Under the pieces are notes generated by a model that saw only the letters and a list, made by a program, of their open reading frames with translations, was not told the DNA's origin and made no database searches. A stretch of 64,000 bases of DNA, taken from the NCBI RefSeq assembly GCF_018882245.1, contig NZ_JACVOV010000004.1, forward strand, positions 107,028-171,027, given 5' to 3'. Positions 44,779 through 59,996 of the stretch are shown in pieces (within the stretch, counting starts at the first letter, position 1; each line of letters starts with the position of its first letter). Both the position numbers and the translations under genes were made by a program. Source of the stretch: Polynucleobacter sp. AP-Capit-er-40B-B4. Its GTDB lineage: Bacteria > Pseudomonadota > Gammaproteobacteria > Burkholderiales > Burkholderiaceae.

Positions 44779-44796
44779 TCGTCACAAAAGTGTCAT
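44779..44796 (+). promoter_or_regulatory. Candidate Pho box before the lysine-rich gene and PPK2
   Basis: TCGTCAC-AAAA-GTGTCAT: two heptamers at 11-base spacing matching the CTGTCAT repeat bound by PhoB (5 and 6 of 7, the second differing only at its first base). It lies 90 bases before the ATG. Confidence 0.6.
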
Positions 44797-44885
44797 ATAC
44801 GCTTGAAATTGATAGATTTAAAACGTAGGATGGTCCAAAGAGTAAAAATTTACCTATAACCTATGAATAAAAAATAAGGAAAATC

Positions 44886-45161
44886 ATGAGCCAAAAGAAA
44901 CTAGTGAAGCAGCTGTTAAAAAAGCTCGATAAATTAGAGTCCGATAGAGAAAAGCTCATCAATAAGCTGGCAAAAGCATTAGATAAGCTAGAAAAAAAGG
45001 TGACGGATAAGAAGGTCCCCACGAAAAAAGTAGCGGCTAAAAAAGCACCTGCTAAAAAGGTCCCAGTAAAGAAAGTTGCTGTAAAAAAGACCCCTACTAA
45101 AAAGGCGCCTGCAAAAAAGACGGCCGCCAAGAAAGCTGTCAGCGCCAACGAAGTAAGCTAA
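44886..45161 (+). CDS. Lysine-rich protein with coiled coil, coupled to PPK2
   Basis: A 91-residue protein. Residues 1-43 form an amphipathic, strongly charged helix (LVKQLLKKLDKLESDREKLI), then residues 44-87 are KKAPAKK/KKVAVKK repeats like PAKKA-motif DNA-binding tails (PhaM, PhaF, histone H1-like proteins). Its TAA stop overlaps the PPK2 ATG by one base (TAATG), so the two are made together. AAGGA is six bases before its ATG. A role in placing polyphosphate synthesis on nucleoid or granule is a hypothesis. Confidence 0.75.
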   Translation: MSQKKLVKQLLKKLDKLESDREKLINKLAKALDKLEKKVTDKKVPTKKVAAKKAPAKKVPVKKVAVKKTPTKKAPAKKTAAKKAVSANEVS

Positions 45162-45934
45162 TGAGTCATAAAAACAAAGATAAGCTGGAGGAATCTAGTT
45201 ACGACGCTGCACTTCGCTTATTACAAATTGAGTTGGTGAAGCTCCAAAATAGCCTCATCAAAAATGGTGATCAGATCCTGGTCATATTAGAGGGTCGAGA
45301 TACTGCAGGCAAAGACGGAACCATTAAAGCTATCACGGAACATCTAAGTCCACGTGAAACACGTATTGTTGCACTTGGCAAACCCTCAGATACCGAATCT
45401 ACAGAGTGGTACTTTCAGAGGTATGTTGCGCAGCTACCCAAGCAAGGTGAGTTCGTCCTATTCAATCGTAGTTGGTATAACCGAGCTGGCGTTGAACGCG
45501 TCATGAATTTCTGCACTAAAGCTCAATACGTTAATTTCATGGAAACCGTAAATGACTTTGAATCCATCCTAGTGCGCTCAGACATTACTATCTTGAAATA
45601 CTATTTAGACATTTCCAAGAAAGAGCAGGCGTTGCGTCTTGAAGATAGGGAGAATGATCCACTAAAGCAGTGGAAGATCAGCCCTATTGATCAGCAAGCG
45701 CAGAAAAATTGGAATGCGTATAGTAAATGTAGAAATGAAATGCTAGAAAGAACCAGCCCTAAAGATGCGCCTTGGACAATTGTTATGGCTAACGACAAGA
45801 AGCTGGCTCACTTAAATTTAATTCGAGATTTACTCTCTAGAGTGTCCTACCCAGGAAAAGATAAGTCACTACTCAGGGCGGATAAAGATATTGCCTTTAA
45901 GTGGGATGGCAAACTATCTAAACTCGAGAAATAA
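45161..45934 (+). CDS. Polyphosphate kinase 2 family protein (first copy)
   Basis: A 257-residue PPK2 that transfers phosphate between polyphosphate and nucleotides. Walker A-type EGRDTAGKDGTIK (44-56), then WYFQRYVAQLPKQGEFVLFNRSWYNRAGVERVMNF, the lid and catalytic region of the family, and WKISPIDQQAQKNW. One-domain length. The Asp in AGKDG, where the other copy has Gly, hints at a different nucleotide preference, but class cannot be fixed by eye. It ends five bases from the convergent second PPK2. Confidence 0.92.
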   Translation: MSHKNKDKLEESSYDAALRLLQIELVKLQNSLIKNGDQILVILEGRDTAGKDGTIKAITEHLSPRETRIVALGKPSDTESTEWYFQRYVAQLPKQGEFVLFNRSWYNRAGVERVMNFCTKAQYVNFMETVNDFESILVRSDITILKYYLDISKKEQALRLEDRENDPLKQWKISPIDQQAQKNWNAYSKCRNEMLERTSPKDAPWTIVMANDKKLAHLNLIRDLLSRVSYPGKDKSLLRADKDIAFKWDGKLSKLEK

Positions 45935-45939
45935 AATCT

Positions 45940-46851
45940 TTAGAAGACTTCAGGGACGTACATCTTCTGCGGCACTGGACCACGAAGATAGTCTGGGTTA
46001 TGCACACGCTTAGGCAAAGTAATTACCGGATGATCGATTTCTTGATATGGGATTTGACTGAGTAAATGGGTGATGCAGTTGAGACGAGCTTTTTTCTTAT
46101 CATTGGCAGCAACTACCCACCACGGCGCCTCTGGAATATGAGTACGCTCCAGCATCGTTTCTTTTGCCTTGGTATAGGCCTCCCAGAGTCTTCTGGCTTC
46201 AAGATCCATTGGACTTAATTTCCACTGCTTGAGTGGATCATGAATGCGCATCATGAAGCGGTTGTACTGTTCATCATCAGAAATAGAGAACCAATACTTA
46301 ATTAAGATAATGCCCGAGCTAATCATCATTCGCTCAAGATCAGGAACTGTTCTTAGGAACTCTTCGTATTCTTCATCATTACAAAACCCCATCACCCTCT
46401 CTACGCCGGCACGGTTGTACCAGCTACGATCAAATAGAGCGATCTCACCACCAGCAGGCAAATGGGAAATATATCTTTGAAAATACCATTGAGTCTTTTC
46501 GCGTTCGTTGGGTGCCGGTAAAGCGACTACTTTACAAACACGAGGATTGAGGCGCTGGGTAATACGCTTAATAGCACCACCCTTACCCGCTGAATCACGA
46601 CCCTCAAATAGAACTGCAACCTTAAGCTTATTTGCCACTACCCAATCTTGGAGCTTTACTAGCTCGCCCTGCAGTCTAAATAATTCGCGGAAATAAACAT
46701 TGCGTGGAATCTGAGATTTGCTATCGCCATCAGGGGAAAGACGATCATCATCAAGCTCCATCTCAAGCTCTTCATCCATGCTATCAAGAATTTCTTCTTG
46801 AGCACGTCGATACCACTCGGCCATCTCTTTATGCTTCGATGTCATTTTCAT
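45940..46851 (-). CDS. ppk2: Polyphosphate kinase 2 family protein (second copy)
   Basis: A 303-residue PPK2 with an N-terminal acidic extension (EEILDSMDEELEMELDDD), Walker A FEGRDSAGKGGAIKR (82-96), WYFQRYISHLPAGGEIALFDRSWYNRAGVERVMGFC and WKLSPMDLEARRLW. It matches the class I type enzymes that make GTP or ATP from polyphosphate (about 300 residues). A candidate Pho box overlaps the end of the acyltransferase gene upstream. Alternative start Met3. Confidence 0.93.
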   Translation of the reverse strand: MKMTSKHKEMAEWYRRAQEEILDSMDEELEMELDDDRLSPDGDSKSQIPRNVYFRELFRLQGELVKLQDWVVANKLKVAVLFEGRDSAGKGGAIKRITQRLNPRVCKVVALPAPNEREKTQWYFQRYISHLPAGGEIALFDRSWYNRAGVERVMGFCNDEEYEEFLRTVPDLERMMISSGIILIKYWFSISDDEQYNRFMMRIHDPLKQWKLSPMDLEARRLWEAYTKAKETMLERTHIPEAPWWVVAANDKKKARLNCITHLLSQIPYQEIDHPVITLPKRVHNPDYLRGPVPQKMYVPEVF

Positions 46852-46884
46852 TCCACTCCTAGAATACCTTTATAGCCAGGAAAG

Positions 46885-46902
46885 ATGACACTTTTATTAC
46901 AT
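46885..46902 (-). promoter_or_regulatory. Candidate Pho box before the second PPK2
   Basis: Minus strand: ATGTAAT-AAAA-GTGTCAT, 34 bases before the PPK2 ATG. It overlaps the last codons of the upstream acyltransferase gene. The first heptamer is weak (5 of 7). Confidence 0.45.
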
Positions 46903-47685
46903 AAAGGGCTGATGACCGTTTAAGCGATTAGAAATAACCTCCTGGCTATGCAAGGCTAACCACTTGCGATCTCTAGAGGCTTCTGGAGTAGCACCAGAAG
47001 GGGATAAAAAGGTTAATTCGACGATCAATTGACGATCATGCAATATCTTAGCCATAGATTCAAGCAATCCCATCTCGCCAACAAAGGCAGCAACATCACT
47101 TCTCTCGCCAGACGCAGCAGACTGATAGGAAATTGCTAGGGAGTAGACCGATACGCCAGCAATCACGGCAGATTCAAACAAATTAGGTTTGAACGGCAGT
47201 ACAGTCTCTCCTAGCGTGGAGGTGCCCTCAGGAAAGATACAGACAGAATGAGATGCAAGAACTCTGCCTACATCTTCAGCAACCTTCTTCCCATGGCGAA
47301 TTTTGTCTCGCTTAATAAAAACGGTGCCCAATTGCTTTGCCATCCAGCCAAATATTGGCCACCCCTCTACATCCGACTTTGCAACAAAGAGAATGGGGTT
47401 AAAAGCATTGATAGCGTGGATATCCATCCAAGAAATATGGTTTGAAGCAAGAAGGAATGGAGTGCTTGGAAGAATTTCTTGATTCTTCAACCTTAATTCA
47501 ATTCCAAAAATATTTAGCAATCTTTTTGACCAAGCCTGAATCAGTTGATTTTTCTTTTTTTGATCCGCAAAAGGAAATTGAAAAGATAAAGTAGCCAAAC
47601 CAGCGATCACGTGAACCCATACGAGAACCCAGCACCAAGCTACTGATGTGTTTCTCGATAGATTTAGGGAATGTTTCTTACTCAT
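46897..47685 (-). CDS. 1-acyl-glycerol-3-phosphate acyltransferase family (PlsC/OlsA-like)
   Basis: A 262-residue membrane acyltransferase with an N-terminal helix (WCWVLVWVHVIAGLATL), the catalytic HISWMD (HX4D, 83-88) and FPEGTST (151-157). PlsC enzymes acylate lysophosphatidic acid; the OlsA subgroup acylates lyso-ornithine lipid. Since an OlsB-type gene is 2.4 kb away in the same island, OlsA is possible. ATG 47685 chosen over a TTG at 47697. It is divergent from plcP over 104 bases. Confidence 0.83.
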   Translation of the reverse strand: MSKKHSLNLSRNTSVAWCWVLVWVHVIAGLATLSFQFPFADQKKKNQLIQAWSKRLLNIFGIELRLKNQEILPSTPFLLASNHISWMDIHAINAFNPILFVAKSDVEGWPIFGWMAKQLGTVFIKRDKIRHGKKVAEDVGRVLASHSVCIFPEGTSTLGETVLPFKPNLFESAVIAGVSVYSLAISYQSAASGERSDVAAFVGEMGLLESMAKILHDRQLIVELTFLSPSGATPEASRDRKWLALHSQEVISNRLNGHQPFM

Positions 47686-47725
47686 ATGGATTAGCAATAT
47701 AAATCAAATTCAGAAAATATTTGCA

Positions 47726-47765
47726 TAGTCACAAAACTGCCTCAGAACTGTCACGCTGCTTTCAT
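47726..47765 (+). promoter_or_regulatory. Multi-copy Pho box before the plcP-like gene
   Basis: Four heptamers at exact 11-base spacing: TAGTCAC, CTGCCTC, CTGTCAC, CTTTCAT (starts 47726, 47737, 47748, 47759), each separated by four bases. The last pair is close to the PhoB consensus CTGTCAT. It ends 24 bases before the ATG. Confidence 0.75.
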
Positions 47766-47789
47766 ACTTTGTTGGCTTAATACTGTTTC

Positions 47790-48599
47790 ATGATGCATTA
47801 CAAAGCCATCTGGATTTCAGACGTACACCTGGGGACATCAGGGTGTCAGGCAAACTACCTTCTCGATTTTCTAAAGCATAACGAAGCTGAGAAATTCTAT
47901 CTGGTGGGCGACATTATTGACGGTTGGAGACTAAAGAAATCTTTCTACTGGCCACAATCACATAATGACGTAGTGCAAAAACTATTGCGCAAGGCTCGTA
48001 AAGGCAGCGAAGTCATCTATGTTCCCGGCAATCATGATGAAAGCGCTAGACAATTCTTTGGCCTTTCGTTTGGTGATGTCAAGGTTGTTGAAGAGGTAAT
48101 CCATACAACCGTAGATGGCAGAAAACTATGGGTAACCCATGGCGATCAATTTGATGGGGTAATGCAATACGCTAAGTGGCTTGCCTATGTTGGCGACACC
48201 ATGTATTCGTTCATTCTTTACGTGAACCGCTACTTCAATATGCTCCGCGCCAAGATGGGCTTGCAATATTGGTCTCTATCTCAATACCTCAAGCACCAGG
48301 TAAAAAACGCCGTCAGCTATATCGCAGATTTTGAACACATTATGGCCAGGGAAGCGCGTCTAAGAGGTTGTGATGGGGTTGTTTGCGGGCATATTCACAA
48401 GGCAGAAATCCGTGAGATCGATGGCTTGCTGTATTGCAACGATGGCGATTGGGTCGAAAGCCTGACCGCCTTGGTTGAAACACAAACCGGTGAACTCAAA
48501 ATTATTCACTGGACAAATATTAAGGGCGAGCCCGTTGAAGCCACTCAAGCCTCCCTTCCACCCGCTATTGAATCACTTATTAAAGAGGTTGCTCTATGA
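47790..48599 (+). CDS. plcP: Metallophosphoesterase, PlcP-like phospholipase C (or UDP-diacylglucosamine hydrolase-like)
   Basis: A 269-residue calcineurin-like phosphoesterase. Metal sites: SDVHLG (10-15), GDIIDGW (40-46), GNHDE (80-84), THGDQFD (116-122) and GHIH (200-203). It resembles UDP-2,3-diacylglucosamine hydrolase, yet LpxH-like proteins in an operon with a glycosyltransferase and under PhoB control are the PlcP type that cuts phospholipids to diacylglycerol in phosphate-starved bacteria. ATGA overlap with the next glycosyltransferase. Start could also be Met2. Confidence 0.8.
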   Translation: MMHYKAIWISDVHLGTSGCQANYLLDFLKHNEAEKFYLVGDIIDGWRLKKSFYWPQSHNDVVQKLLRKARKGSEVIYVPGNHDESARQFFGLSFGDVKVVEEVIHTTVDGRKLWVTHGDQFDGVMQYAKWLAYVGDTMYSFILYVNRYFNMLRAKMGLQYWSLSQYLKHQVKNAVSYIADFEHIMAREARLRGCDGVVCGHIHKAEIREIDGLLYCNDGDWVESLTALVETQTGELKIIHWTNIKGEPVEATQASLPPAIESLIKEVAL

Positions 48600-49624
48600 A
48601 AATTATGATCATTACCGATGCATGGGACCCACAGGTGAACGGCGTTGTCCGCACCCTCAAACAAACCCGTGCAGAATTAATTGCCTTGGGTCATGAGGTG
48701 GAGATGATCACCCCCACTGGTTTTAAATCAATTCCATGTCCAACCTATCCTGATATCGCCTTATCCCTGTTCCCGGCCAAAGAAGTAGCACGTCGAATTA
48801 AAGAGTTTGCACCTGATGCCATGCATATCGCTACCGAGGGTCCATTGGGGCTATCTGCTCGCGCCTATGCAGTAAAAAATCGCCTACCCTTTTCTACCGC
48901 ATATCACACACGCTTCCCAGAGTACGTCAAGGCACGTACCGGCATTCCATTGGGCATTACCTATGCATTTATTCGGTGGTTTCATGGTCCATCTATGGCA
49001 GTCATGGCGCCAACCATTGTGGTTAAGGACGATCTAGAAAAATTTGGCCTGAAGAATGTGGTTCTGTGGTCAAGAGGTGTAGATCTCGACATTTTTAAGA
49101 TGCAGGATTCAAAGGCACTGAATACCGCTCATCCCATCTTTTTATATGTAGGGCGTGTGGCTGTTGAAAAAAATATCAATGCTTTTTTAGAGATTGATCT
49201 GCCAGGTTCCAAGTGGGTGGTAGGAGACGGTCCGGCCTTGGCTGGAATAAAAGAAAAATATCCAGAAGTGAACTATCTGGGTGTATTACAGCAACATGAG
49301 TTGGCTAAAGTGTATGCAGCTGCAGATGTATTTGTATTTCCAAGTAAGACCGACACATTTGGACTAGTTTTATTGGAAGCAATGGCATGCGGCACCCCCG
49401 TAGCAGCGTATCCAGTAACTGGTCCTATTGATGTACTGGGGAATTCAAACTCAGGGGCAATGAATGAGGATCTGCGAGAAGCCTGTATGCAAGCACTTAA
49501 AATTCCTCGTGAAATTGCACGTGCCCATGCTGAGAAATTTTCTTGGCGTGCAGCTACAGAGCAGTTTGCTCAACATTTGAAGCCTGTGCCAACGACAGAA
49601 GTTCACGTCGCTGCATTAGCTTAA
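48596..49624 (+). CDS. agt: GT4-type glycosyltransferase (Agt-like)
   Basis: A 342-residue GT-B enzyme. N-terminal domain: DAWDPQVNGVVRTLKQTRAEL; C-terminal nucleotide-sugar domain: FLYVGRVAVEKNINAFLEI, WVVGDGPALAGIKE and FVFPSKTDTFGLVLLEAMACGTPVAAYPVTG with the family's E-x7-E motif. With the plcP-like gene it resembles agt, which glycosylates diacylglycerol to make glycolipids under phosphate limitation. Four-base overlap with the upstream gene. Confidence 0.85.
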   Translation: MKIMIITDAWDPQVNGVVRTLKQTRAELIALGHEVEMITPTGFKSIPCPTYPDIALSLFPAKEVARRIKEFAPDAMHIATEGPLGLSARAYAVKNRLPFSTAYHTRFPEYVKARTGIPLGITYAFIRWFHGPSMAVMAPTIVVKDDLEKFGLKNVVLWSRGVDLDIFKMQDSKALNTAHPIFLYVGRVAVEKNINAFLEIDLPGSKWVVGDGPALAGIKEKYPEVNYLGVLQQHELAKVYAAADVFVFPSKTDTFGLVLLEAMACGTPVAAYPVTGPIDVLGNSNSGAMNEDLREACMQALKIPREIARAHAEKFSWRAATEQFAQHLKPVPTTEVHVAALA

Positions 49625-49636
49625 GGCAAGATACTC

Positions 49637-50041
49637 GTGAGCTTCCCTTACCATGTTGACCAGAACCCACATAAGGGCAACCGAGGCCTTACTAGGGCAT
49701 GGCATGCGACCAAGAACTCCTGGTGTGGATTGGTATATGCCTTTCGAGAAGAAAGCGCTTTTCGACAAGAGCTTACCCTGCTTGTATTGTTAGCACCTAC
49801 AGCACTTGCATTACCTATAACACCTTTAGAAAAGGTGCTACTAGTCTCGTCTCTGGTAATGGTGCTCGTCATTGAACTACTGAATTCTAGTGTAGAGGCA
49901 GCAATTGATCGAATTTCATTTGAGCATCACGATCTCTCCAAGCGCGCAAAAGATTTTGGCAGTGCCGCCGTCATGCTAGCCCTCGTTATAGCAGTACTAC
50001 TTTGGGCCGCAGTCTGCGCCCCCTTGATTCTCACACTCTAA
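49637..50041 (+). CDS. dgkA: Diacylglycerol kinase
   Basis: A 134-residue integral membrane kinase. DgkA features: RAWHATKNSWCGLVYAFREESAFRQEL, three membrane helices, and the active-site ELLNSSVEAAIDRISFEHHDLSKRAKDFGSAAV. It turns diacylglycerol back to phosphatidate. GTG start at 49637, 12 bases after the glycosyltransferase stop. In this operon it may recycle diacylglycerol left from PlcP action. Confidence 0.92.
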   Translation: MSFPYHVDQNPHKGNRGLTRAWHATKNSWCGLVYAFREESAFRQELTLLVLLAPTALALPITPLEKVLLVSSLVMVLVIELLNSSVEAAIDRISFEHHDLSKRAKDFGSAAVMLALVIAVLLWAAVCAPLILTL

Positions 50042-50081: not shown

Positions 50082-51002
50082 ATGTCTGACATTCCCAATC
50101 CAATTGGTTCATTTGAAATTTTTTCCCCTAAAAAAGTAAAGCCGCTGAAAAAGAAGCAGTCAAATACCTTTCAAAAGCTCTCTAAAAAGTTAGCTAAAAA
50201 ACTATTTGGAAAGAAATTTGTTACAAAAACAAGAGCTGAACTTAGGGAAGTGGAGATAACTCCTTCCGTTCAAATAAAACCCAAAAAACCGGCCTTTCAG
50301 ATTGTTTGGGCAAGTACTCCAGGTGAAATTAAAGAAGCTCAGAGATTGCGATACAAAGTATTTGCCGAGGAGATGGGGGCGAAGCTACCGATGAATGCAG
50401 AAGGTCTTGATATTGATGAATTCGATGCCTATTGCGACCACTTATTAATTCGTGATCAAGACAGCCTCAAGGTCGTGGGCACCTATCGCGTTCTCCCCCC
50501 TCATAGAGCTAAAGAAATCGGACGCCTTTATTCTGATTCTGAGTTTGACTTATCCCGCCTTGACCACCTGCGCCCTAAATTAGTTGAATTGGGTAGATCT
50601 TGCGTTCACCAAGACTATCGCTCAGGCGCGGTGATCATGGCGCTGTGGAGTGGCCTGGCACAGTATATGCAAAAGAATGGCTATGAAATCATGTTGGGAT
50701 GCGCCAGCATCCCTATGGCTGATGGCGGACACTTTGCAGCGAGCCTTTATAACTCACTTGGCAATGATCAAATGGCGCCTACAGAGTTCCACGCCTTCCC
50801 ACGCTTGCCATTGCCATTGGATAAGCTGAATGGTGGCCTGGATGTACAGCCTCCCCCTTTGATTAAGGGCTACTTAAAGCTTGGAGCCAAAATTTGCAGC
50901 GCTCCAGCGTGGGATCCAGACTTTAATACTGCTGACTTATTAACAATGATGAGACTATCAGAAATTAATCCGCGTTACGCAAAGCATTTCTTGGGTCTCT
51001 AA
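50082..51002 (+). CDS. GNAT-like acyltransferase, OlsB/ornithine-acyl-ACP type
   Basis: A 306-residue protein. After a Lys-rich N-terminal stretch (about 18-60), the PF13444-type acyltransferase domain: RLRYKVFAEEMGAKLP, DIDEFDAYCDHLLIRD, VGTYRVLPP and LVELGRSCVHQDYRSGAVIMALWSGLA (the LGRSCVH motif of OlsB). OlsB joins a 3-hydroxyacyl chain to ornithine, first step to ornithine lipids. Other members acylate other amino acids, so substrate is inferred. 40 bases after dgkA; followed by a terminator. Confidence 0.82.
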   Translation: MSDIPNPIGSFEIFSPKKVKPLKKKQSNTFQKLSKKLAKKLFGKKFVTKTRAELREVEITPSVQIKPKKPAFQIVWASTPGEIKEAQRLRYKVFAEEMGAKLPMNAEGLDIDEFDAYCDHLLIRDQDSLKVVGTYRVLPPHRAKEIGRLYSDSEFDLSRLDHLRPKLVELGRSCVHQDYRSGAVIMALWSGLAQYMQKNGYEIMLGCASIPMADGGHFAASLYNSLGNDQMAPTEFHAFPRLPLPLDKLNGGLDVQPPPLIKGYLKLGAKICSAPAWDPDFNTADLLTMMRLSEINPRYAKHFLGL

Positions 51003-51070: not shown

Positions 51071-52645
51071 TTACTTAAAGCTGATTTGATAAGAGCGGCC
51101 AACTCTTTCCCACTCTGCGGCCTCTTTTAAAAGACTAAATTCTGTCAAAGGGTGTTCGGTGGCCCATTCTTTAGATAGGCTCACCAGGTAGGAGCCTTCA
51201 TGCTCTGAAACTTTTACCTTTGGAATGCTATTGTCATTTCGACCGCGACAAAGAACTTGAGCAAGCCTCAAACAAAAGAGCATACGCCAGTCTTCAAAGC
51301 CGTGGTTATTGGCTAACTTACCAAGTTTTCCGGTATGGCCAATCAATAAAGCAGCAAGTCTTGCCTGGTCATTCTTAGAGAATCCCGGCATATCGGCATT
51401 ACCAGCAATATAAGCTGAATGCTTGTGATACCCATTATGGGAAATAGATAAACCAATTTCATGAAGGTTAGCAGCCCACTGCAATAATGCGACGTTATCT
51501 GCCCTACTCTCTGACTCAGGCTTAGGAAGTTGCTGTAAAAAATCTGCCGCCAATTTACCTACCCTAGCAGCCTGATCACGATCCACGGCATAACGTTGCA
51601 TGAATTGCTCTACGGTGACATAGCGCATATCGTGATGCTGAGATCGACCAAGTAAGTCATAAAGAACGCCGCTACGTAATGCGGCATCCGTCACTTCCAT
51701 TTCCTCAATACCCAATTCATCGAATGCAGCCAGCATAATCGCTAAGCCTCCAGGCCATACAGCCCTTCTATCATCCTTGAGACCAATCAACTCAACTTGA
51801 TTGACGTGATCATATTTGAGAAGATGCTTTTTGAGATTCTTTAGGCCTTCACGGGTAATGAGGCCACTTGCCCCATTGACGCGACCCATTGTTAATCCAT
51901 CGCTATTCCCATTGAAATTATTGCTAGCGATTAATTCAGCCAAGGCTCTAGCAGTTCCAGAGGAACCGATGACTTGTTTCCATCCACTTTTTAAATAAAC
52001 CCCGGAGATTACCTGTATTTCACGGCGGGCAGCTAGCTCGGCCTCCTTAAAAGCGTGAGCATCAATATTTCCTTTGGGGAAAAAACGCAAACTATGTGAG
52101 ACGCAGCCTATGTAAAGACTTTCCATCAACTTTGGCTCGTAACCTTTGCCAATAATGAATTCGGTAGAACCGCCACCAATATCAATGACAAGCCTATTAC
52201 CTTGAATAGCCTGCACCTCATGCGCCGCCCCAATGTAAATGAGACGGGCCTCTTCTACGCCAGCAATAACCTCAATCGGAAAACCTAAAGCCTCTTGCGC
52301 ATCCTCAACAAACTGCTGTGCATTTTTAGCAACACGTAATGTATTGGTAGCAACCGCGCGAACATTGGCAGGATCAAATCCACGAATGCGTTCACCAAAA
52401 CGTCTAATAGCAATTAAGCCTCGTTGATAGGCATCATTACCAAGTAATTTATTTTCCGTTAGTCCTGCAGCCAAACGAACTGTCTCGCGCAAGGTATCTA
52501 TAGGACGAAGCTGCGTTCCTGAAGGAGTATTGACGACCTGAGCCACCAGCATGCGAAAACTATTAGAGCCTAAGTCAACCGCAGCTACGAGGTCTGCTGA
52601 TATCGCTAAAGGATCTACCGGATTGCTGGACAAAATGTTCCCCAA
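51071..52645 (-). CDS. ppx: Exopolyphosphatase (Ppx/GppA family)
   Basis: A 524-residue enzyme removing phosphate from polyphosphate ends (or converting pppGpp). ASKHA-fold motifs: VAAVDLGSNSFRMLVAQV (20-37), ATNTLRVAKNA, IAGVEEARLIYIG and LVIDIGGGSTEFIIG; the C-terminal HD-like domain includes LLQWAANLHEIGLSISH. The family length and position between PhoB/PhoR and the lipid genes support Ppx. A candidate Pho box lies 44 bases upstream. Confidence 0.92.
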   Translation of the reverse strand: MGNILSSNPVDPLAISADLVAAVDLGSNSFRMLVAQVVNTPSGTQLRPIDTLRETVRLAAGLTENKLLGNDAYQRGLIAIRRFGERIRGFDPANVRAVATNTLRVAKNAQQFVEDAQEALGFPIEVIAGVEEARLIYIGAAHEVQAIQGNRLVIDIGGGSTEFIIGKGYEPKLMESLYIGCVSHSLRFFPKGNIDAHAFKEAELAARREIQVISGVYLKSGWKQVIGSSGTARALAELIASNNFNGNSDGLTMGRVNGASGLITREGLKNLKKHLLKYDHVNQVELIGLKDDRRAVWPGGLAIMLAAFDELGIEEMEVTDAALRSGVLYDLLGRSQHHDMRYVTVEQFMQRYAVDRDQAARVGKLAADFLQQLPKPESESRADNVALLQWAANLHEIGLSISHNGYHKHSAYIAGNADMPGFSKNDQARLAALLIGHTGKLGKLANNHGFEDWRMLFCLRLAQVLCRGRNDNSIPKVKVSEHEGSYLVSLSKEWATEHPLTEFSLLKEAAEWERVGRSYQISFK

Positions 52646-52688
52646 AAATGGAATGCAGCATCAATTATGTCTATTTTATGTACAAACC

Positions 52689-52706
52689 ATGACATATTGA
52701 TGAAAT
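52689..52706 (-). promoter_or_regulatory. Candidate Pho box before ppx
   Basis: Minus strand: ATTTCAT-CAAT-ATGTCAT, heptamers matching CTGTCAT at 5 and 6 of 7 positions, 44 bases before the ppx start. Confidence 0.5.
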
Positions 52707-52955: not shown

Positions 52956-52977
52956 AATGCCATACTGAACCAGAATT

Positions 52978-52995
52978 ATGACAAGAATATGTCAG
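52978..52995 (-). promoter_or_regulatory. Candidate Pho box before the GDCCxxC gene
   Basis: Minus strand: CTGACAT-ATTC-TTGTCAT, each heptamer 6 of 7 to CTGTCAT, 23 bases before the GTG start. The short distance implies a very short leader. Confidence 0.5.
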
Positions 52996-53099
52996 TTGAC
53001 TATAAAGGGGCGGAAACTAAACCCATTAAAACAATGAATTATGACTGTCATATTACTTTGCTAGGATTAGACCTTACTTAATCCATGGATTGAATGATT

Positions 53100-53300
53100 A
53101 TGAGTAAATATCAATATGAAGATGCTGTAAAGCAATTGCAAGAGTCTGGCTGCATTGGACTGGCAGACCTAAAAAATCTTCCGCACGAAGATCTTGTAGA
53201 GCTACTGGAAGAGATTAAGGTTTGGTGCCTTTATGCCAACGGCAAAGCTGAAAAGCTACCTAAAGAATCTAAAAAGAAGAAAAAGAAAAAGAAGGAGTGA
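53100..53300 (+). CDS. Small protein with polylysine tail, unknown function
   Basis: A 66-residue protein: a helical domain (YEDAVKQLQESGCIGLADLKNLPHEDLVELLEEIKVWCLYANGKAE) and a C-terminal tail with eight Lys in a row before a final Glu. I do not recognise it. A single CTGTCAT heptamer (53045-53051) lies 49 bases upstream. It ends three bases from the convergent phoR stop. ATG 53094 is an alternative start. Confidence 0.6.
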   Translation: MSKYQYEDAVKQLQESGCIGLADLKNLPHEDLVELLEEIKVWCLYANGKAEKLPKESKKKKKKKKE

Positions 53301-53303: not shown

Positions 53304-54602
53304 CTAAACCGCGACTCGGTCTTTAGGGAAGCGAAGCATGAATTTACTACCTCTACCGGGCGTACTTTCAATCACGAGCTGAGCTTGATGGCGGTTGGCG
53401 ATATGCTTAACAATAGCGAGCCCCAGTCCGGTTCCGCCAGTATCCCTTGATCGACTCCGGTCAACACGATAAAAGCGCTCCGTTAATCGAGAGAGATGCT
53501 CAGATGCAATGCCTGGGCCAGTATCCGTTACTGAAAATTCACCCTGCCCCTGTTCGTTAACCTTCCACTCCACAGAAATAGCGCCCACATCTGGGGTATA
53601 ACGAATTGCATTGGACACTAAATTGCTAAAAGCAGAGAGGATCTCCCTTTCATCACCCAATAAGTTTTGCGTTGAGTTCACATCAAAACTTATTGAATGC
53701 TTTCCTTGTGAAAGCGCTTCGGCATCATTTTTAATTAGCGCCATTAAGGTTTCGATCTTCACCACAGTAGTTGTAGCTGGCAATGCATTAGACTCTAGAT
53801 TGGCTAAGGTTAATAGATCCTCAACTAAGCTCTTCATTCTTTGTGCCTGCGACATCATCATGTCTAAGTACTGATCCTGCTGATCCTTTTTAAGCTCCAA
53901 GGATTGAACGGTCTCCAGAAAGCCCATTAAGACGGTGATTGGCGTCCGCATTTCATGAGAAACATTGGCCACGAAATCACGCCGCATGGCATCCGCTTTT
54001 TGCAAGTCAGTAACGTCCTGAATCAAAAGAAGATGGCGTTTTTGACCAAATGGGAAGGCCTGCAGCATCAAACTGAGACTGCCATCTGGCCCCATGCGCT
54101 CCATCAATAGGGGCTCTTCAAAAATACGCCTATTCAGATACTGTATGAATTCAGGTCGTCTAATTAAAAAATTTACGCGCTGCATCACATCGCGCTTAAA
54201 GATCAACCCAAAAAATCTCTCGGCAATACTGTTACACCATTCAATTTGATCATTTTCATCAAGCATAACAATGCCATTAGGTGAGGCCTGAAATGCCTCA
54301 ATAAAATGATCGTGTTGTTGCTCAATACTGCGAATGCGCTGCTTTAGATTTCTGACAAGTCGTTGAAGCCTAAAAAATACCTCCTCCCAAAAACCACTTG
54401 GCAAGGGCATATTTTCAACAGAATCAGCAAGGATGTATTTCCTCAGACGCGCTAAATTAATATACGCATAAACAAGGGGGATAGAAAGTACTGCAACTCC
54501 TGCAGCAATAGCCCACTCTGCGCCCCAGAAAGGCAGAACGATAAATGCCGCAATAAATGCGACACAAATGATGACAAAGAAACGGGTTAATACAGAGAGC
54601 AT
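53304..54602 (-). CDS. phoR: Phosphate regulon sensor kinase PhoR
   Basis: A 432-residue histidine kinase. Two membrane helices (8-25, 31-48), a short charged linker, a PAS domain (about 100-200; FIEAFQASPNGIVMLDENDQI), the phospho-acceptor His216 in VANVSHEMRTPITVLMGF, and ATPase boxes (FSNLVSNAIRYTP, DTGPGIASEHL, GTGLGLAIVKHI). Short periplasmic loop and PAS are typical of PhoR, which senses Pst-PhoU state rather than a ligand. 62 bases after phoB. Confidence 0.95.
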   Translation of the reverse strand: MLSVLTRFFVIICVAFIAAFIVLPFWGAEWAIAAGVAVLSIPLVYAYINLARLRKYILADSVENMPLPSGFWEEVFFRLQRLVRNLKQRIRSIEQQHDHFIEAFQASPNGIVMLDENDQIEWCNSIAERFFGLIFKRDVMQRVNFLIRRPEFIQYLNRRIFEEPLLMERMGPDGSLSLMLQAFPFGQKRHLLLIQDVTDLQKADAMRRDFVANVSHEMRTPITVLMGFLETVQSLELKKDQQDQYLDMMMSQAQRMKSLVEDLLTLANLESNALPATTTVVKIETLMALIKNDAEALSQGKHSISFDVNSTQNLLGDEREILSAFSNLVSNAIRYTPDVGAISVEWKVNEQGQGEFSVTDTGPGIASEHLSRLTERFYRVDRSRSRDTGGTGLGLAIVKHIANRHQAQLVIESTPGRGSKFMLRFPKDRVAV

Positions 54603-54664: not shown

Positions 54665-55378
54665 TTAAGTTTCAGTTGGAGTCTTGGTAATGCGGTAACC
54701 ACTACCCCGGACAGTCTCAACATAGCGGTCGCAATCAAATGGCACCAGAGCTGCTCTTAGGCGCTTGATGTGGACGTCAACCGTTCTTTCCTCAATATAG
54801 ACTTCACTACCCCAAACCTTATCCAGCAAGCTAGCACGGGAGTGAACCCGCTCAGGATTGGCCATAAAAAACTGCAGCAAGCGAAACTCTGTTGGACCCA
54901 AAGCAATTGACTTAGGCTCTTGATTTGGCCAGACTGCTAATACGCGGTGAGAGCTTGGATCCAGCTTTAATGGACCTACAGTCAATGGGCCCGTGTCTTC
55001 AATAGGCGTCTGCCTTCTTAATATTGCCCTTACTCTTGCCACCAGCTCTTTAGGAGAAAATGGCTTGGTCACATAGTCATCCGCACCAGAATCCAGTCCA
55101 AGAACCTTATCCGACTCCTCGCTTTTGGCGGTGAGCATCAGGATAGGCAAGCCTTTAGTGCGCTCAGTGGCACGGAGCTCCTTAGCAAACTGCACCCCAG
55201 ACTTTCCTGGCATCATCCAATCCAAGATAATCAGACTAGGCAATTGATCTTTCATCATCGCCAACGCAAGATCTGTTTGCATGGCTTTTTCCACTTCATA
55301 TCCAGCATGTGACAGATTAATCGCAATCAATTCTGCAATTGATGGCTCATCCTCAACTATGAGTATGCGGTGAGTCAT
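54665..55378 (-). CDS. phoB: Phosphate regulon response regulator PhoB
   Basis: A 237-residue OmpR-type regulator. Receiver: acidic pocket E9-D10, phosphoacceptor Asp53 (ILDWMMPGKSG), Lys105 (VTKPFSP). DNA-binding winged helix: LGPTEFRLLQFFMANPERVHSRASLLDKVWG and RTVDVHIKRLRAAL. It should bind the CTGTCAT boxes seen across the island. 15 bases after phoU in the pst operon. Confidence 0.96.
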   Translation of the reverse strand: MTHRILIVEDEPSIAELIAINLSHAGYEVEKAMQTDLALAMMKDQLPSLIILDWMMPGKSGVQFAKELRATERTKGLPILMLTAKSEESDKVLGLDSGADDYVTKPFSPKELVARVRAILRRQTPIEDTGPLTVGPLKLDPSSHRVLAVWPNQEPKSIALGPTEFRLLQFFMANPERVHSRASLLDKVWGSEVYIEERTVDVHIKRLRAALVPFDCDRYVETVRGSGYRITKTPTET

Positions 55379-55393
55379 TATTCGAGGTCCTAA

Positions 55394-56101
55394 TTATTGT
55401 CTATTTGCTTCGCGAACTAAATCTTCATGGGGAATATGACGAACGTCAGATCCCTTGGCAATGTAAATTACGAACTCTGCGATATTTTTAGCGTGGTCGC
55501 CAATACGCTCGATTGCCTTAGCAATAGTCAGCATATCTAGGCCAGTGCTAATCATATGAGGGTCTTCAGACATGTAAGTAATGAGCTTACGAACAAAGCC
55601 TCTAAATTCTTCATCAATCTGTCGATCCTCTTGCACTACCTCAGCTGCCGCAATAGTATCTAGGCGGGCAAATGCATCAAGACTGCGGCGTAGTAGAGAG
55701 ATAGCCATCTGGCCTGATAACCGAATCTCAGCAACGTTAATGTTATGCGGTAGGCCAGACTCAATTAAACGCTTAGTGCGCTTAGCAACGCGCTCTGCTT
55801 CATCGCCCGCACGCTCTAAATTGGTTATCGCTTTGGATACCGCCATCACGAGACGTAAGTCGCGTGCTGTAGGCTGTCTACGTGCAATCAATTCTGTACA
55901 GGCTAAGTCGATCTGGATCTCAAGATCATTTACTAGCTTTTCATTTTCGATCACAACATTGCAGGTTTCAGCATCCATTTGCGTAAAAGCGCGCATGGCT
56001 GTTGCAATTTGTGACTCCACTAACCCACCCATTTCAAGCAAGCGGCTTGAGAGCGAATTAAGATCTGCGTCGAATTGTGATGATAGATGTTTATCTGGCA
56101 T
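55394..56101 (-). CDS. phoU: Phosphate transport regulator PhoU
   Basis: A 235-residue protein of two PhoU helical-bundle repeats. Each repeat has the E/D-rich metal site: VNDLEIQIDLACTELIARRQP and LITYMSEDPHMISTGLDMLTIAKAIERIGDHAKNIAEF. It links PstB to PhoR. ATG 56101 chosen, with GGAGA 6 bases upstream; a TTG at 56113 directly after the pstB stop is less likely. Confidence 0.95.
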   Translation of the reverse strand: MPDKHLSSQFDADLNSLSSRLLEMGGLVESQIATAMRAFTQMDAETCNVVIENEKLVNDLEIQIDLACTELIARRQPTARDLRLVMAVSKAITNLERAGDEAERVAKRTKRLIESGLPHNINVAEIRLSGQMAISLLRRSLDAFARLDTIAAAEVVQEDRQIDEEFRGFVRKLITYMSEDPHMISTGLDMLTIAKAIERIGDHAKNIAEFVIYIAKGSDVRHIPHEDLVREANRQ

Positions 56102-56113
56102 ATATGTCTCCAA

Positions 56114-56962
56114 TTAACCGAAGCGGCCGGTTATGTAATCTTCTGTTTCTTTGCGCTTAGGCTTAATAAATATTTCGTCTGTTTTACCGTACTCAATAAG
56201 GCTACCCAAATACATATAGGCTGTGTAGTCGGATACACGGGCTGCTTGTTGCATATTATGGGTCACAATCGCGATGGTGTAATCCTTCTTCAATTCATGA
56301 ATTAACTCTTCCACCTTGCCGGTTGAGATAGGATCCAAAGCTGAAGTTGGCTCATCCAACAAAATGACTGAAGGCTTGACTGCAACTCCGCGAGCAATAC
56401 ACAAACGCTGTTGCTGGCCGCCAGAGAGAGATAAACCACTTTGATTTAATTTATCCTTTACTTCATTCCACAGGGCCGCTTTATTTAATGCCCACTCTAC
56501 GCGCTCATCCATCTCAGAGCGAGAAAGTTTTTCGTAAAGACGCACGCCAAAGGCGATATTTTCATAGATCGACATTGGGAATGGCGTTGGCTTCTGGAAA
56601 ACCATACCAATTCTTGAACGGAGCAGATTCAAATCCTGGCCCGGCTCAAGAATATTTTGTCCATAAAAGTTAATCTCACCCTCTGCACGCTGGCCTGGAT
56701 ATAGATCATACATACGGTTTAACGTTCTCAGAAGTGTCGATTTACCACAGCCAGATGGGCCAATAAAGGCTGTAACCTTACCCTGCTCAATATCTAAATT
56801 GATTTTCTTTAAGCCCTGGAATGCGCCGTAGTAAAAATTCAAATTGCGCACTTCAATAGCGTTAATGGCCGCTTGTTGCGGTTCCTGGTTTAACGTATCC
56901 ACTCTACCCCCTTGACCATCAACCTGATTTAAGTCAAACATAGTTTTCATATTACTCATCAT
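56114..56962 (-). CDS. pstB: Phosphate ABC transporter ATPase PstB
   Basis: A 282-residue ABC ATPase: Walker A GPSGCGKS (68-75), [19 protein letters not shown] signature, Walker [13 protein letters not shown]. An unusual 35-residue N-terminal extension precedes the domain ([13 protein letters not shown]). Overlaps pstA by four bases (ATGA). Confidence 0.95.
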
Positions 56963-57825
56963 CCCTGCACCTTGTCTCGGAACACCACGCGAGCCAGGAT
57001 ATTTAACCCAAGCACTGCAAATGTAATCAGTAAAGCGCCGCCCCAGGCAAGATCAACCCAGTTGTCATAGGGGCTCATCGCAAACTGGAAAATAACAACC
57101 GGCAAATTTGCCATTGGCGCATTCATATTCGTTGAGAAGAATTGGTTATTCAGCGCCGTAAAGAGTAAAGGTGCCGTCTCACCACTCACACGAGCAAGCG
57201 CAAGCAAGATACCCGTCATCACGCCGCTCTGAGCTGCGCGCAACGTAATCATGAATGCCACTTTCCATTTTGGCGTACCAAGCGCATAAGCTGCTTCACG
57301 CAAGCTACCCGGAACCAAACGCAGCATATTTTCCGTGGTTCTAACGACCACAGGAATAGCAATTAAAGCCAACGCAATCGTGCCAGCCCAACCAGAGAAG
57401 TGACGAACTTGCGCAACTACGAATGCGTATACAAACAGACCAATGACAATAGATGGTGCGGACAACATAATGTCAGTTACAAAGCGAGTGACTGCGGCAA
57501 CCTTGCTGCGATCGCCGTATTCTGAAAGATACAAGCCAGCCAATACACCTACTGGCGTGCTGATGAGTGTGCAGCAACCAATCAACATCAAACTACCCAC
57601 AATCGCGTTAGCAAGACCGCCACCATCAGAGCCTGGCGCCGGAGTGCTATGAGTAAAGAGGTCTAAGTTAATTGAAGAAAAACCTTTGATGACCAAAACA
57701 CTAAGGATCCAAAATAAAAAAACCATCCCCAAGGCCATCGCAGCCATCGACAAAGTTAAGCCAATTTTGTTTGCACGTTTTCGACGGGCAAAAATTTCTG
57801 GATTGATATTGGTTGCCTTGTTCAT
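56959..57825 (-). CDS. pstA: Phosphate ABC transporter permease PstA
   Basis: A 288-residue permease, six membrane helices, EAA loop [26 protein letters not shown] chose ATG 57825 ([10 protein letters not shown]) because it overlaps the pstC stop as ATGA; an upstream GTG/ATG frame would extend into pstC. Characteristic [16 protein letters not shown] stretch present ([16 protein letters not shown]). Confidence 0.95.
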
Positions 57826-58811
57826 GATTTCAGGCCCTGCTTCTTCTCCATATTGCTTAGCATCCACTTAGCACAGGCCAAAACAATGAAGGTGATGATG
57901 AATAGCGCAAGACCGAGGGCAAATAAAGATGAAAGATGATTACCTGCTTCAGCTTCACCGAATTCGTTTGCTAATGTAGATGCAATCGATGTGCCCGGAG
58001 CGAATAAAGATGGTGACAGGCGCTGTGCATTGCCGATAACAAAGGTCACAGCCATGGTTTCACCCAGGGCACGACCCAAACCCAGCATTACGCCACCAAT
58101 AACCCCTGCCTTGGTATATGGCAATACAACATTCTTAACGACTTCCCAGGTTGTACAACCAATCCCGTATGCAGACTCCTTTAGAACCGGCGGGACAATC
58201 TCAAACACGTCGCGCATCACTGAAGCGATGAATGGAAGAATCATCATTGCCAAAATGAGTCCGGCACAGAGGACACCAATACCATTGAACGCGCCAGAGA
58301 ATAGGATTCCCAATCCAGGAACCTTACCCAAAGTAGCTGCAAGTGCTGGCTGAACATAGTCAGCAAACAACGGTGCAAAAATAAATAGGCCAAACATTCC
58401 ATAAATAATAGAAGGCACTGCAGCCAACAACTCTACCGCTGTACCAAGGGGTCTGCGTAAAGGACCCGGGCAAAGTTCGGTCAAAAAGACGGCAATACCA
58501 AAGCTTAAGGGAACGGCAATGACCAAAGCGATGATGGATGTAACCAAGGTTCCGTAGATCGCAATCAAGCCACCAAACTCACCATTTACGATATCCCACT
58601 CTTGGGTAAAGAAAAAACCAATACCAAAAGTATGTAGGGCTGGCCACGCATTAATCACGAGAGAGATGATGATTCCCAAGAGGGCAATTAAGACGCTGCA
58701 AGCAAAAAACTGGGTAATGCCATGAAACAAGAAATCCTGCACACGCTGGATCTTGGCGATCCTGAGCGCCTGAGGCGTTGGGGCGGAATGAGACTGGGCG
58801 TTATCTATCAT
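57822..58811 (-). CDS. pstC: Phosphate ABC transporter permease PstC
   Basis: A 329-residue permease: [58 protein letters not shown], and the EAA loop [25 protein letters not shown]. Start ATG 58811 used; GTG 58820 adds three residues. It follows pstS after 83 bases that contain a stem-loop. Confidence 0.95.
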
Positions 58812-58835
58812 AATTCGCACATATTTAAACAGCCA

Positions 58836-58861
58836 AACAGCCCCACCTTAGTGGAGCTGTT
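58836..58861. terminator. Stem-loop between pstS and pstC
   Basis: AACAGCCCCAC-CTTA-GTGGAGCTGTT, 11 pairs with one mismatch. The minus-strand RNA is followed by TTGGCTGTTT, a poor T-run, so it probably lowers read-through and protects the pstS 3' end rather than stopping the operon fully. Confidence 0.55.
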
Positions 58862-58894
58862 TGTTTTTGGTAAAAACTGGCAGATTAGCAAAAT

Positions 58895-59917
58895 TTACTT
58901 AGTTGCAATCTTGGTAAACACATTCTTACGAATGAAGTCAGTAGTTTTGTCTGGCATTGGAACGTAGTCTAAATCTTCAGCCATCTTCTTGCCATCTTTA
59001 AAGGCAAAGTCAAAGAACTTAATAACTTCCGCTACGTTAGCTTTATTTTCTGGGTTCTTGTAGATCAAGATAAAAGAGGCGCCTGTGATTGGCCATGATT
59101 TAGCACCAGGAGCATTCGTAATAAATGTACCCATTCCTGGAATCGCAGCCCAATCTGTACTTGCAGCAGCCGCAGCAAAGGTCAGGTCATCTGGAGCCAC
59201 AAATTGACCATCTTTGTTCTTCATGGAAATGAAGGTCATTTTGTTTTTCTTTGCGTAGGCATACTCAACATATCCAACTGAGTTTTTTACACGGGTTACG
59301 TTTGCTGCTACACCTTCGTTACCTTTGCCACCTACCGTAGAAGCGGCAGGCCACTTAACAGAAGCGCCGGCACCCACTGAGTCTTTAAATAAAGAGCTTG
59401 TTTTAGCCAAGTAATCAGTAAAGATTGCTGTTGTACCTGAACCGTCAGCACGTACAACTACAGTAATGGGACCGCTAGGAATCTTGACACCAGGATTCAT
59501 GATAGCGATACGCTTATCACCCCAATCAGAAATTACACCCTGGAAGATGTCTGCCAAAGTTGGGCCATCTAACTTGATCTCGCCTGGCTTTACACCGTCA
59601 ACGTTAATCACTGGCACTACACCGCCAATAATTACTGGGAACTGAACTAAACCATCTTTTTCTAAGTCGTCAAACTTCACTGGATTATCGGTCGCGCCAA
59701 AATCTACTGTTTTAGCTTTGATCTGTTTGATGCCACCGGAAGATCCAATGGATTGGTAATTTAAATTAGAGCCTGTCTTAGCTTTATAAGCTTCTGCCCA
59801 TTTTGCATAAATTGGATATGGGAAGGTTGCGCCAGCACCGGTCATATCCACTGCAAATGCCGCTGGTGCAAGTGAAATTGCGCCTATTACTAGGGCTTTT
59901 TTTAGAAAAGATTTCAT
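58895..59917 (-). CDS. pstS: Phosphate-binding protein PstS
   Basis: A 340-residue periplasmic phosphate-binding protein. Signal peptide (KALVIGAISLAPAAFA, cleavage before VDMTGAG), then GAGATFPYPIYAKWAEAY, YQSIGSSGGIKQIKAKTVDFGATDNP (phosphate site), VVRADGSGTTAIFTDYL. Start ATG 59917 (MKSFLKK) fits the signal peptide; upstream frame would add ten residues. Headed by a strong Pho box. First gene of pstSCAB-phoUBR. Confidence 0.97.
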   Translation of the reverse strand: MKSFLKKALVIGAISLAPAAFAVDMTGAGATFPYPIYAKWAEAYKAKTGSNLNYQSIGSSGGIKQIKAKTVDFGATDNPVKFDDLEKDGLVQFPVIIGGVVPVINVDGVKPGEIKLDGPTLADIFQGVISDWGDKRIAIMNPGVKIPSGPITVVVRADGSGTTAIFTDYLAKTSSLFKDSVGAGASVKWPAASTVGGKGNEGVAANVTRVKNSVGYVEYAYAKKNKMTFISMKNKDGQFVAPDDLTFAAAAASTDWAAIPGMGTFITNAPGAKSWPITGASFILIYKNPENKANVAEVIKFFDFAFKDGKKMAEDLDYVPMPDKTTDFIRKNVFTKIATK

Positions 59918-59978
59918 TTGGTCAGTCCTTACATTAAATATGCGCAACGGCGCGATATAAGAACGATACGGCGGGAAT

Positions 59979-59996
59979 ATGACGGTTATATGACAG
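59979..59996 (-). promoter_or_regulatory. Pho box upstream of pstS
   Basis: Minus strand: CTGTCAT-ATAA-CCGTCAT, a nearly perfect PhoB site (7 and 6 of 7), 62 bases before the pstS ATG. A weaker third heptamer (CCGCCGT, 59968-59974) follows at the same spacing. It is the reference box for judging the others in this window. Confidence 0.88.

Follow-up and report, generated by a model that had tools for sequence, protein, structure and literature searches.

A phosphate-starvation gene island of Polynucleobacter: a likely PhoB regulon with two PPK2 genes and no PPK1 match

Introduction

Is a tight grouping of phosphate-starvation genes controlled as a single regulon, and what do its two polyphosphate kinase genes of the PPK2 family do in a genome in which PPK1 is not found? 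Both questions are raised by an island of about 15 kb (positions 44,779 to 59,996) in a 64-kb stretch of contig NZ_JACVOV010000004.1 of Polynucleobacter sp. AP-Capit-er-40B-B4. This whole stretch is referred to as the window, and its coordinates are used throughout. The host genome (2.04 Mb, 10 contigs) is 100% complete. Published work is cited from excerpts of the articles given.

Window proteins were scanned with Pfam and NCBIfam profiles. The scans confirmed the grouping and bore out the gene content listed in an initial annotation of the sequence: pstSCAB, phoU, phoBR, ppx, two PPK2 genes (ppk2a and ppk2b), and genes for a PlcP-like phosphodiesterase (plcP), a glycosyltransferase (agt), DgkA and two acyltransferases (olsB and olsA). 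From left to right, an open reading frame (ORF) for a histone H1-like protein precedes ppk2a; ppk2b and olsA follow on the opposite strand; and plcP, agt, dgkA and olsB then share one orientation, neighboring genes overlapping or lying no more than 40 bases apart. In the right part, ppx is convergent to olsB and is followed by two small ORFs, phoR, phoB, phoU, pstB, pstA, pstC and pstS. We estimate a probability of about 0.7 that the island constitutes a PhoB regulon, in which Pst would be joined to an exchange of lipids and in which the PPK2s and Ppx would run polyphosphate in place of PPK1.

Results

Pho-box-like sites in the host genome

Every position on both strands was scored as a 22-mer of two 11-base PhoB units, using a matrix based on the E. 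coli PhoB consensus CTGTCAT-A(AT)A(TA)-CTGT(CA)A(CT) (PMC3465305) with weights that we set ourselves (maximum, 30). The five highest-scoring 22-mers of the window were those at 59975(-), 52974(-), 44779(+), 47748(+) and 46881(-). The ppx site, at 23.0, tied for sixth place with three others, one of them inside the plcP array. As background, we scored 799,160 positions in 400 kb of the host genome (20 stretches, approximately one fifth of the genome). Seven positions reached 23, three reached 24, and only one scored as high as the site at 44779.

The whole 2.04-Mb genome was also searched with the unweighted pattern, using the pattern read backward as a control. With at most one mismatch, 19 sites were detected, four of which lay within the 15.2-kb island (binomial p 1.1e-5), all four before genes. 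The 15 sites elsewhere, 11 of them within open frames of 120 residues or more and four outside such frames, revealed no clear additional regulon. With at most two mismatches, 321 sites were found against 287 for the control, which is no clear genome-wide excess.

Conservation of the sites in relatives

Upstream regions were scored in 38 island loci from Polynucleobacter with a threshold of at least 23; contig and gene ends lowered the number for some genes. The threshold was reached upstream of pstS in 12/12 loci, plcP in 34/36, ppk2b in 22/26, ppx in 28/38, and olsB in 17/38. None of 149 control regions reached it (phoB, dgkA and phoR, 0/32 each; pstB, 0/17; olsA, 0/36). A matrix with a scrambled second unit matched in none of ten gene sets, and a matrix read backward matched at plcP in 14/36 loci, at olsB in 1/38, and in no other set. 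Because the sites head the window ranking and are conserved at four promoters versus none of the controls, a single PhoB regulon over the uptake, polyphosphate and lipid genes is likely, as the initial annotation had proposed. Its Pho boxes are likewise supported as non-random: five of the six are the top five of the window and the other, at ppx, shares sixth place. The site it placed at 52978, before a GDCCVxC zinc-ribbon gene, did not hold up in relatives, some of which have a weaker form (22.5) at this position.

Outside the genus, we scored loci found through plcP (of 20 such loci, 19 belong to other genera, including one whose plcP contains stops, and the last is a broken Polynucleobacter island) or OlsB (the best 80 loci, 53 of them from other Burkholderiaceae genera). 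A Pho box preceded plcP in 9 of the 18 other-genus loci scored. Upstream of olsB, 8/52 loci reached 23 and 18/52 reached 22 (median shuffle p 0.02), and a site preceded ppx in 7/51. Since plcP and olsB have Pho boxes in other genera, part of the Pho regulation is likely to predate the gene grouping. Similarly, the best scores upstream of ppk2b in four PPK1-bearing Polynucleobacter genomes were 25.5, 26.0, 22.5 and 23.0; thus, ppk2b may have come under this control before PPK1 was lost.

Loss of PPK1 and distribution of PPK2

No match to PPK1 (PF02503) was found in the host genome, in a search whose control was positive in 7 of 14 named genomes. PPK2 is the only polyphosphate kinase family found in this genome. 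Among 61 genomes sampled from the genus, 18 encode PPK1 and 49 encode PPK2. Two PPK2s occurred in 36 of the 43 genomes lacking PPK1 and one in three, all three 78-83% complete. The remaining four had no PPK match, and OlsB was also missing or broken in them. The PPK1-bearing genomes contained no PPK2 (8), one (2), two (7), or fragments (1).

On a 48-row tree of six proteins, PPK1 was lost once: the PPK1-less clade has 28 rows, includes the host, and has an SH-aLRT support of 100. The tree was built quickly, with long branches flagged, and the PPK1 status of five named rows was taken from the locus alone. The row closest to the host on the six-protein alignment is 94% identical to it; by OlsB, the nearest named relatives are Polynucleobacter loci, with a top match of 92% to Polynucleobacter sp. 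86C-FISCH. Moreover, ppk2b adjoins olsA in all 24 island loci retrieved from genomes without PPK1 (not counting the broken locus of G017) versus none of 14 PPK1-bearing loci. The two PPK2s likely stand in for PPK1. Genome notes describe one Polynucleobacter subcluster with ppk2 (one strain without it) and another with both ppk and ppk2 (PMC10019162, PMC10112219), statements consistent with the split observed here. The initial annotation had the regulon spending polyphosphate; this was not borne out, as PPK1 was not found and the PPK2s may therefore also be makers.

The ppk2a operon and its H1-like partner

The stop codon of the H1-like ORF overlaps the start of ppk2a by one base (TAATG). In the tree, ppk2a occurs in the island in the host and seven relatives, all in one nine-row clade whose ninth row (L051) has ppk2a elsewhere. 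A Pho box preceded the operon in 8/8 in-island cases of a first set (the b-type locus L267 left out) versus 1/21 elsewhere. A second set, scored after this pattern had been noted and contributing 5 of 13 in-island and 12 of 33 other cases, gave 5/5 (26.5 to 29.5) and 0/12 (maximum 20.5), respectively. Combined, the site was present in 13/13 in-island cases, all scoring at least 23.5, and in 1/33 elsewhere.

Of 46 genus genomes scored, 40 have a Lys-rich ORF ahead of ppk2a (12/13 in the island and 28/33 elsewhere, with L346 doubtful); no such ORF was found before 13 a-type PPK2 genes of other families. Like AlgP, a P. aeruginosa protein of polyphosphate granules that resembles histone H1 (PMC9239181), the island protein is basic, has Lys/Ala/Pro repeats, and is linked to polyphosphate. 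It is, however, much shorter, at 91 residues, and shares an operon with a kinase; the likeness seen is one of composition, together with weak H1/HC2 matches below cut-off. Another Lys/Ala/Pro-repeat protein, of 292 residues with an unassigned C-terminal part, is encoded just outside the island (43542-44420).

Walker motifs of the two PPK2s

Both PPK2 proteins match PF03976 (313 and 358 bits), exceed the cut-off of TIGR03707, and carry the class I Asn of the WYN signature (PMC8776046). Their Walker motifs differ: GKD with FNRSWYNR for PPK2a, in 31/31 genus loci (30 distinct) and a further 16, and GKG with FDRSWYNR for PPK2b, in 44/44 loci (41 distinct). Among the best loci from 150 genomes of the order, the motifs recur in 13/13 a-type genes, which belong to other families, and in 14/14 b-type genes. 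The class I Walker B Asp is thus present in PPK2b and absent from PPK2a, whose Asn102 aligns with Walker B Asp117 of F. tularensis PPK2, a proposed Mg-holding residue (PMC4748334).

PPK2a thereby combines Asn in place of the usual class I Walker B Asp with a class III-like Asp after the Walker A Lys. This sets it apart from class I enzymes, as the other genes in which we saw these motifs are of the TIGR03709 (class III-type) kind: all 16 such genes over the cut-off have GKD and NRS, with the class III Glu of the signature in 15 and Asp in one (PMC8776046). Nine of nine longer genes with the class II signature have GKG and FDRSWYG (PMC8776046). We place PPK2a only as a predicted PPK2 with a class I signature. 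Because GKD and Asn occur together in all 16 TIGR03709 and all 13 a-type genes, the metal site of PPK2a is likely an alternative one, not a dead one.

Stepwise assembly of the island

Gene order was compared in 40 Polynucleobacter loci, up to 20 kb around olsB. The genes olsA, plcP, agt, olsB and ppx were together in 36; of the four exceptions, L066 is a second olsB-olsA copy, the island of L076 is broken, and L068 and L070 are short contigs. The L066 pair lies outside the island of its genome (G053:C1:1782-21702). Broken island genes characterize two reduced genomes of the genus, those of L076 (G017) and L145 (G151), with contigs of 1.55 and 1.66 Mb; G017 has no PPK match.

In other genera, the island falls into two halves. 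A plcP match occurred in 95 of 120 sampled genomes of the family, and in the 19 other-genus plcP loci, agt followed in 17 and dgkA in 13; olsB, olsA, ppx and phoU were found in none of them. Conversely, in the 53 other-genus OlsB loci, ppx adjoined olsB in 51, phoB was present in 47, and plcP in none. The two loci in which ppx does not adjoin olsB are from Burkholderia stagnalis (L220) and Burkholderia sp. SRS-46 (L223). PPK1 stood between ppx and phoR in all 47 loci showing both. Most of these Burkholderiaceae loci (Paraburkholderia, Cupriavidus, Pandoraea, Ralstonia) share with the island the order pstCAB-phoU-phoB-phoR-ppx and the convergent olsB. By comparison, the island gains plcP-agt-dgkA and olsA, lacks PPK1, and has two PPK2 genes at its end.

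Judging from these gene orders, Polynucleobacter joined the Pst-Pho-olsB half with the plcP-agt-dgkA half; plcP-agt-dgkA and olsA appear to be additions specific to the genus, and the PPK2 genes additions in one clade. The island is therefore likely a PhoB regulon that was physically assembled in steps. That such functions are usually scattered, as the initial annotation stated, holds for plcP-agt-dgkA, which stand apart in other genera, but not for olsB, with its neighbor ppx. Overall, the initial interpretation is partly supported.

Lipid-replacement genes

The start of agt overlaps the end of plcP by 4 bases, and the tandem PhoB-type units lie upstream of plcP. The PlcP-like protein scores far below the cut-offs of LpxH models (32 of 190 and 41 of 134). 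The top two NCBIfam models for Agt are lipid glycosyltransferases, both far under cut-off. A metallophosphoesterase gene followed by a glycosyltransferase gene behind a Pho box is also the arrangement of the PlcP-Agt operon of P. aeruginosa (PA3219-PA3218), Phaeobacter and S. meliloti, a Pho box being reported for the P. aeruginosa operon (PMC8528852). In contrast to that operon, the island adds codirectional dgkA and olsB and sits beside the Pho sensor genes.

The island O-acyltransferase fits OlsA models (130 and 127 bits) better than the AGP acyltransferase model (92 bits), whereas the other PF01553 protein of the genome fits AGP acyltransferase (85 bits, versus 41 for OlsA). Residues 72-305 of OlsB are 69-71% identical to the proteins of Burkholderia loci L205, L220 and L223, these loci being compared rather than Bcal1281 itself, the Burkholderia protein with published OlsB function (PMC7814305). 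OlsB and OlsA are the best models for the two proteins, which are better named OlsB-like and OlsA-like. The names of the OlsA and OlsB models (RHOCB, BRUA) suggest alphaproteobacterial source enzymes. A Lys-rich N-terminus of approximately 70 residues (50082-50290) is missing from most other-genus OlsB matches, which mostly begin at residue 61-72 and in a few cases at 5-55.

Pairs of N- and O-acyltransferases such as OlsB/OlsA are known under phosphate limitation, and in Acinetobacter, as predicted here, Pho control lies on the olsB side, with olsA lacking a Pho box (PMC11828411). Compared with these systems, the island has olsB as the last gene of the plcP operon, a divergent olsA, and the Lys-rich extension of OlsB. 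In Burkholderia sensu lato, Pho boxes have been predicted before olsB; phosphatidylethanolamine is replaced at low phosphate in Paraburkholderia xenovorans, and ornithine lipids are constitutive in Burkholderia sensu stricto (PMC7814305). The host genome has two DgkA genes, the island copy and one at C7:85205. In three PPK1-bearing loci (L072, the same genome as L176; L169; and L170), a dgkA match lies between phoR and phoB, not in the lipid operon.

Features of the island and its neighborhood

The features are collected in Table 1. Both PhoB and PhoR exceed the cut-offs of their models. Translation of pstS more likely begins at an ATG that lies inside the listed TTG start and ahead of the signal peptide. 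The Pfam scan gave no match for the poly-Lys small protein. An autotransporter beta-domain protein (PF03797; 60164-62494) is encoded beside pstS in the same orientation.

The interval between ppx and phoR is a variable slot in the genus, ranging from 0.7 to 8.2 kb among 12 loci inspected; that of the host contains only the two small ORFs. In L042 (10570-16935), it holds a PF00245 alkaline phosphatase, two MgtC-like proteins, a DUF2252 protein and a low-molecular-weight phosphatase. A whole-genome profile search of the host gave no PF00245 match. An out-of-island Pho-box-like site of the host (C7:97545; L277) precedes a low-molecular-weight phosphatase-like gene that resembles one in the slot of relatives.

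Table 1. Genes and Pho-box-like sites of the island (window coordinates; site scores are out of 30)
Feature	Position	Strand	Evidence
Pho-box-like site, H1-like/ppk2a operon	44779..44800	+	score 25.5
H1-like small protein, Lys-rich, 91 aa	44886..45161	+	PF07382 and NF038053, weak, below cut-offs
ppk2a, PPK2 with Walker A GKD, Walker B FNRSWYNR	45161..45934	+	TIGR03707 343.5 bits, cut-off 301.8
ppk2b, class I-type PPK2, Walker A GKG, Walker B FDRSWYNR	45940..46851	-	TIGR03707 370.4 bits
Pho-box-like site, ppk2b promoter, overlapping final bases of olsA	46881..46902	-	score 24.5
olsA-like O-acyltransferase (PlsC-type)	46897..47697	-	PF01553; OlsA models 130, 127 bits
Four tandem 11-bp PhoB-type units, plcP promoter	47726..47769	+	overlapping pairs 22.5, 23.0, 24.5
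plcP-like metallophosphoesterase, predicted phospholipase C	47790..48599	+	PF12850, PF00149
agt-like GT4 glycosyltransferase, predicted diacylglycerol glycosyltransferase	48596..49624	+	PF13439, PF00534
dgkA, diacylglycerol kinase family	49637..50041	+	PF01219, 109.7 bits
olsB-like N-acyltransferase, Lys-rich N-terminal extension	50082..51002	+	PF13444 (GNAT Acetyltransf_5) 134 bits
ppx, exopolyphosphatase	51071..52645	-	PF02541, PF21447; TIGR03706 308.7 bits, cut-off 307
Pho-box-like site, ppx promoter	52685..52706	-	score 23.0
GDCCVxC zinc-ribbon small protein	52746..52955	-	NF041374 60.1 bits, cut-off 40
Pho-box-like site, GDCCVxC gene promoter	52974..52995	-	score 25.5
Small protein, poly-Lys C-terminus	53094..53300	+	homologue in 25 genus loci
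phoR	53304..54602	-	TIGR02966 416.9 bits, cut-off 334.2
phoB	54665..55378	-	TIGR02154 320.7 bits, cut-off 296.2
phoU	55394..56113	-	PF01895 twice
pstB	56114..56962	-	PF00005 and gene order
pstA	56959..57867	-	PF00528 and gene order
pstC	57822..58820	-	PF00528 and gene order
pstS (PstS-like)	58895..59947	-	PF12849 111 bits
Pho-box-like site, pstS promoter	59975..59996	-	score 27.0, highest in window

Discussion

If the island is a single PhoB regulon, phosphate shortage would cause PhoR-PhoB to induce the lipid operon together with Pst, Ppx and the PPK2s, presumably through binding of PhoB to the sites described. By analogy with known families, PlcP would release diacylglycerol, to which Agt would add a sugar; DgkA would convert surplus diacylglycerol back to phosphatidic acid, and OlsB and OlsA would produce ornithine lipid. 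With the products of Agt and of OlsB/OlsA, phosphate-free lipids would replenish the membrane. Upon refeeding, the fully induced Pst system would flood the cell with phosphate. As no PPK1 match was found in the genome, the PPK2s are the likely sink and would make polyphosphate, which they would spend in famine. The H1-like protein would have a role at polyphosphate granules like that of AlgP in Pseudomonas. Caulobacter cells are kept from harm on refeeding by the polyphosphate that PPK1 synthesizes (PMC13250506).

The most complete version of this proposal is a polyphosphate cycle free of PPK1. In it, the clade would have swapped PPK1 for two PPK2s that answer to PhoB and differ in their metal sites, one of them translationally coupled to an H1-like granule protein, and these would buffer phosphate on refeeding, within a phospholipid-dismantling island built stepwise beside its regulator. 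We put this version forward tentatively and hold it to be rather doubtful as a whole.

A number of observations weigh against the regulon or against the role we assign to its PPK2s. The island genomes are related to each other, and the counts are not independent. The upstream region of olsA reached the threshold in 0/36 loci, the site before the GDCCVxC gene did so in just 1/23 relatives, and the plcP promoters also match the reversed consensus in 14/36. The 13 in-island ppk2a cases probably represent one event, and their site could have been gained by positional hitchhiking. Nor does PPK2 go only with the loss of PPK1, as 7 of the 18 PPK1-bearing genomes have two PPK2s, and one genome (G022, 83% complete) keeps a PPK2 with OlsB missing. 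The OlsB models gave 178 and 167 bits against cut-offs of 350 and 320, and the cut-offs of both OlsA models are 300, against the 130 and 127 bits obtained. With respect to function, the granules of Caulobacter are reported to be made by PPK1 and not PPK2 (PMC13250506), P. aeruginosa PPK2A has a 75-fold preference for spending over making polyphosphate, and the direction of the reaction varies between PPK2 enzymes (PMC8776046).

The last points bear on a serious competitor, although one that we rate below even odds: PhoB would control the island as a regulon, yet both PPK2s would do no more than spend polyphosphate, recharging GDP or ADP during starvation, and polyphosphate would come from another enzyme or be scarce in this clade. 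Both proteins pass TIGR03707, the PPK2_P_aer model, P. aeruginosa PPK2A favors nucleotide phosphorylation (PMC8776046), and Ppx is retained alongside them. Against this, Ppx and two kinases without a maker would be an odd set in a genome lacking a PPK1 match, and the class I PPK2s of C. glutamicum and PA2428 strongly make polyphosphate (PMC8776046). That PPK2a is catalytically dead and kept as a polyphosphate-binding scaffold with the H1-like protein would account for the Asn, found in all 31 genus loci and 16 more, at the position of the proposed Mg holder of the F. tularensis enzyme (PMC4748334). A dead PPK2a was considered but rejected as the leading idea, as the same Asn accompanies GKD in all 16 TIGR03709 and 13 a-type genes, which looks like an alternative metal site; we now consider the scaffold improbable.

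Equally improbable, in our view, is that the lipid block serves general envelope synthesis, in which case the PlcP-like protein would be a lipid A enzyme of the LpxH type and the PF01553 protein an additional PlsC. The named closest relatives of PlcP, among 120 listed of 7999 matches, are mostly called UDP-2,3-diacylglucosamine diphosphatase or LpxH, and the OlsA and OlsB models remain under cut-off. Nevertheless, the LpxH models score far too low, the genome has another PF01553 protein that fits AGP acyltransferase while the island copy fits OlsA (130 vs 92), and half of the scored other-genus plcP loci also have Pho boxes. Least probable of all is that the genes are neighbors by chance or co-transfer, with only pst and perhaps olsB under PhoB and the other sites fortuitous. 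Most of the sites outside the island lie inside genes, two mismatches yield no clear excess over the backward control, and the GDCCVxC-gene site is not conserved; but four promoters have conserved sites versus none of the 149 controls, and the order olsA-plcP-agt-olsB-ppx recurs in 36/40 loci. We therefore retain the single PhoB regulon as the preferred reading.

Several parts of the island are of known kinds: a Pho locus with olsB, PlcP-Agt, and OlsBA. As far as the literature was searched, the order of assembly, the single loss of PPK1 with PPK2s in the island, the site before the relocated ppk2a operon, and its H1-like partner are new; among the papers listed in this search, which took in few subscription journals, none had a title or abstract opening concerned with the island. 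Phosphate is limiting in many lakes. Polynucleobacter is a very abundant freshwater genus (PMC7522526), and if our reading is true, the locus provides a ready marker set for phosphate stress. The a-type PPK2s, with their GKD and FNRSWYN motifs, would represent an enzyme that resembles class I overall but class III in its metal site. The island would further show a regulon becoming a gene cluster by steps that a tree can order, and it would offer a natural test of whether PPK2 alone does the phosphate-buffering work that PPK1 performs in Caulobacter.

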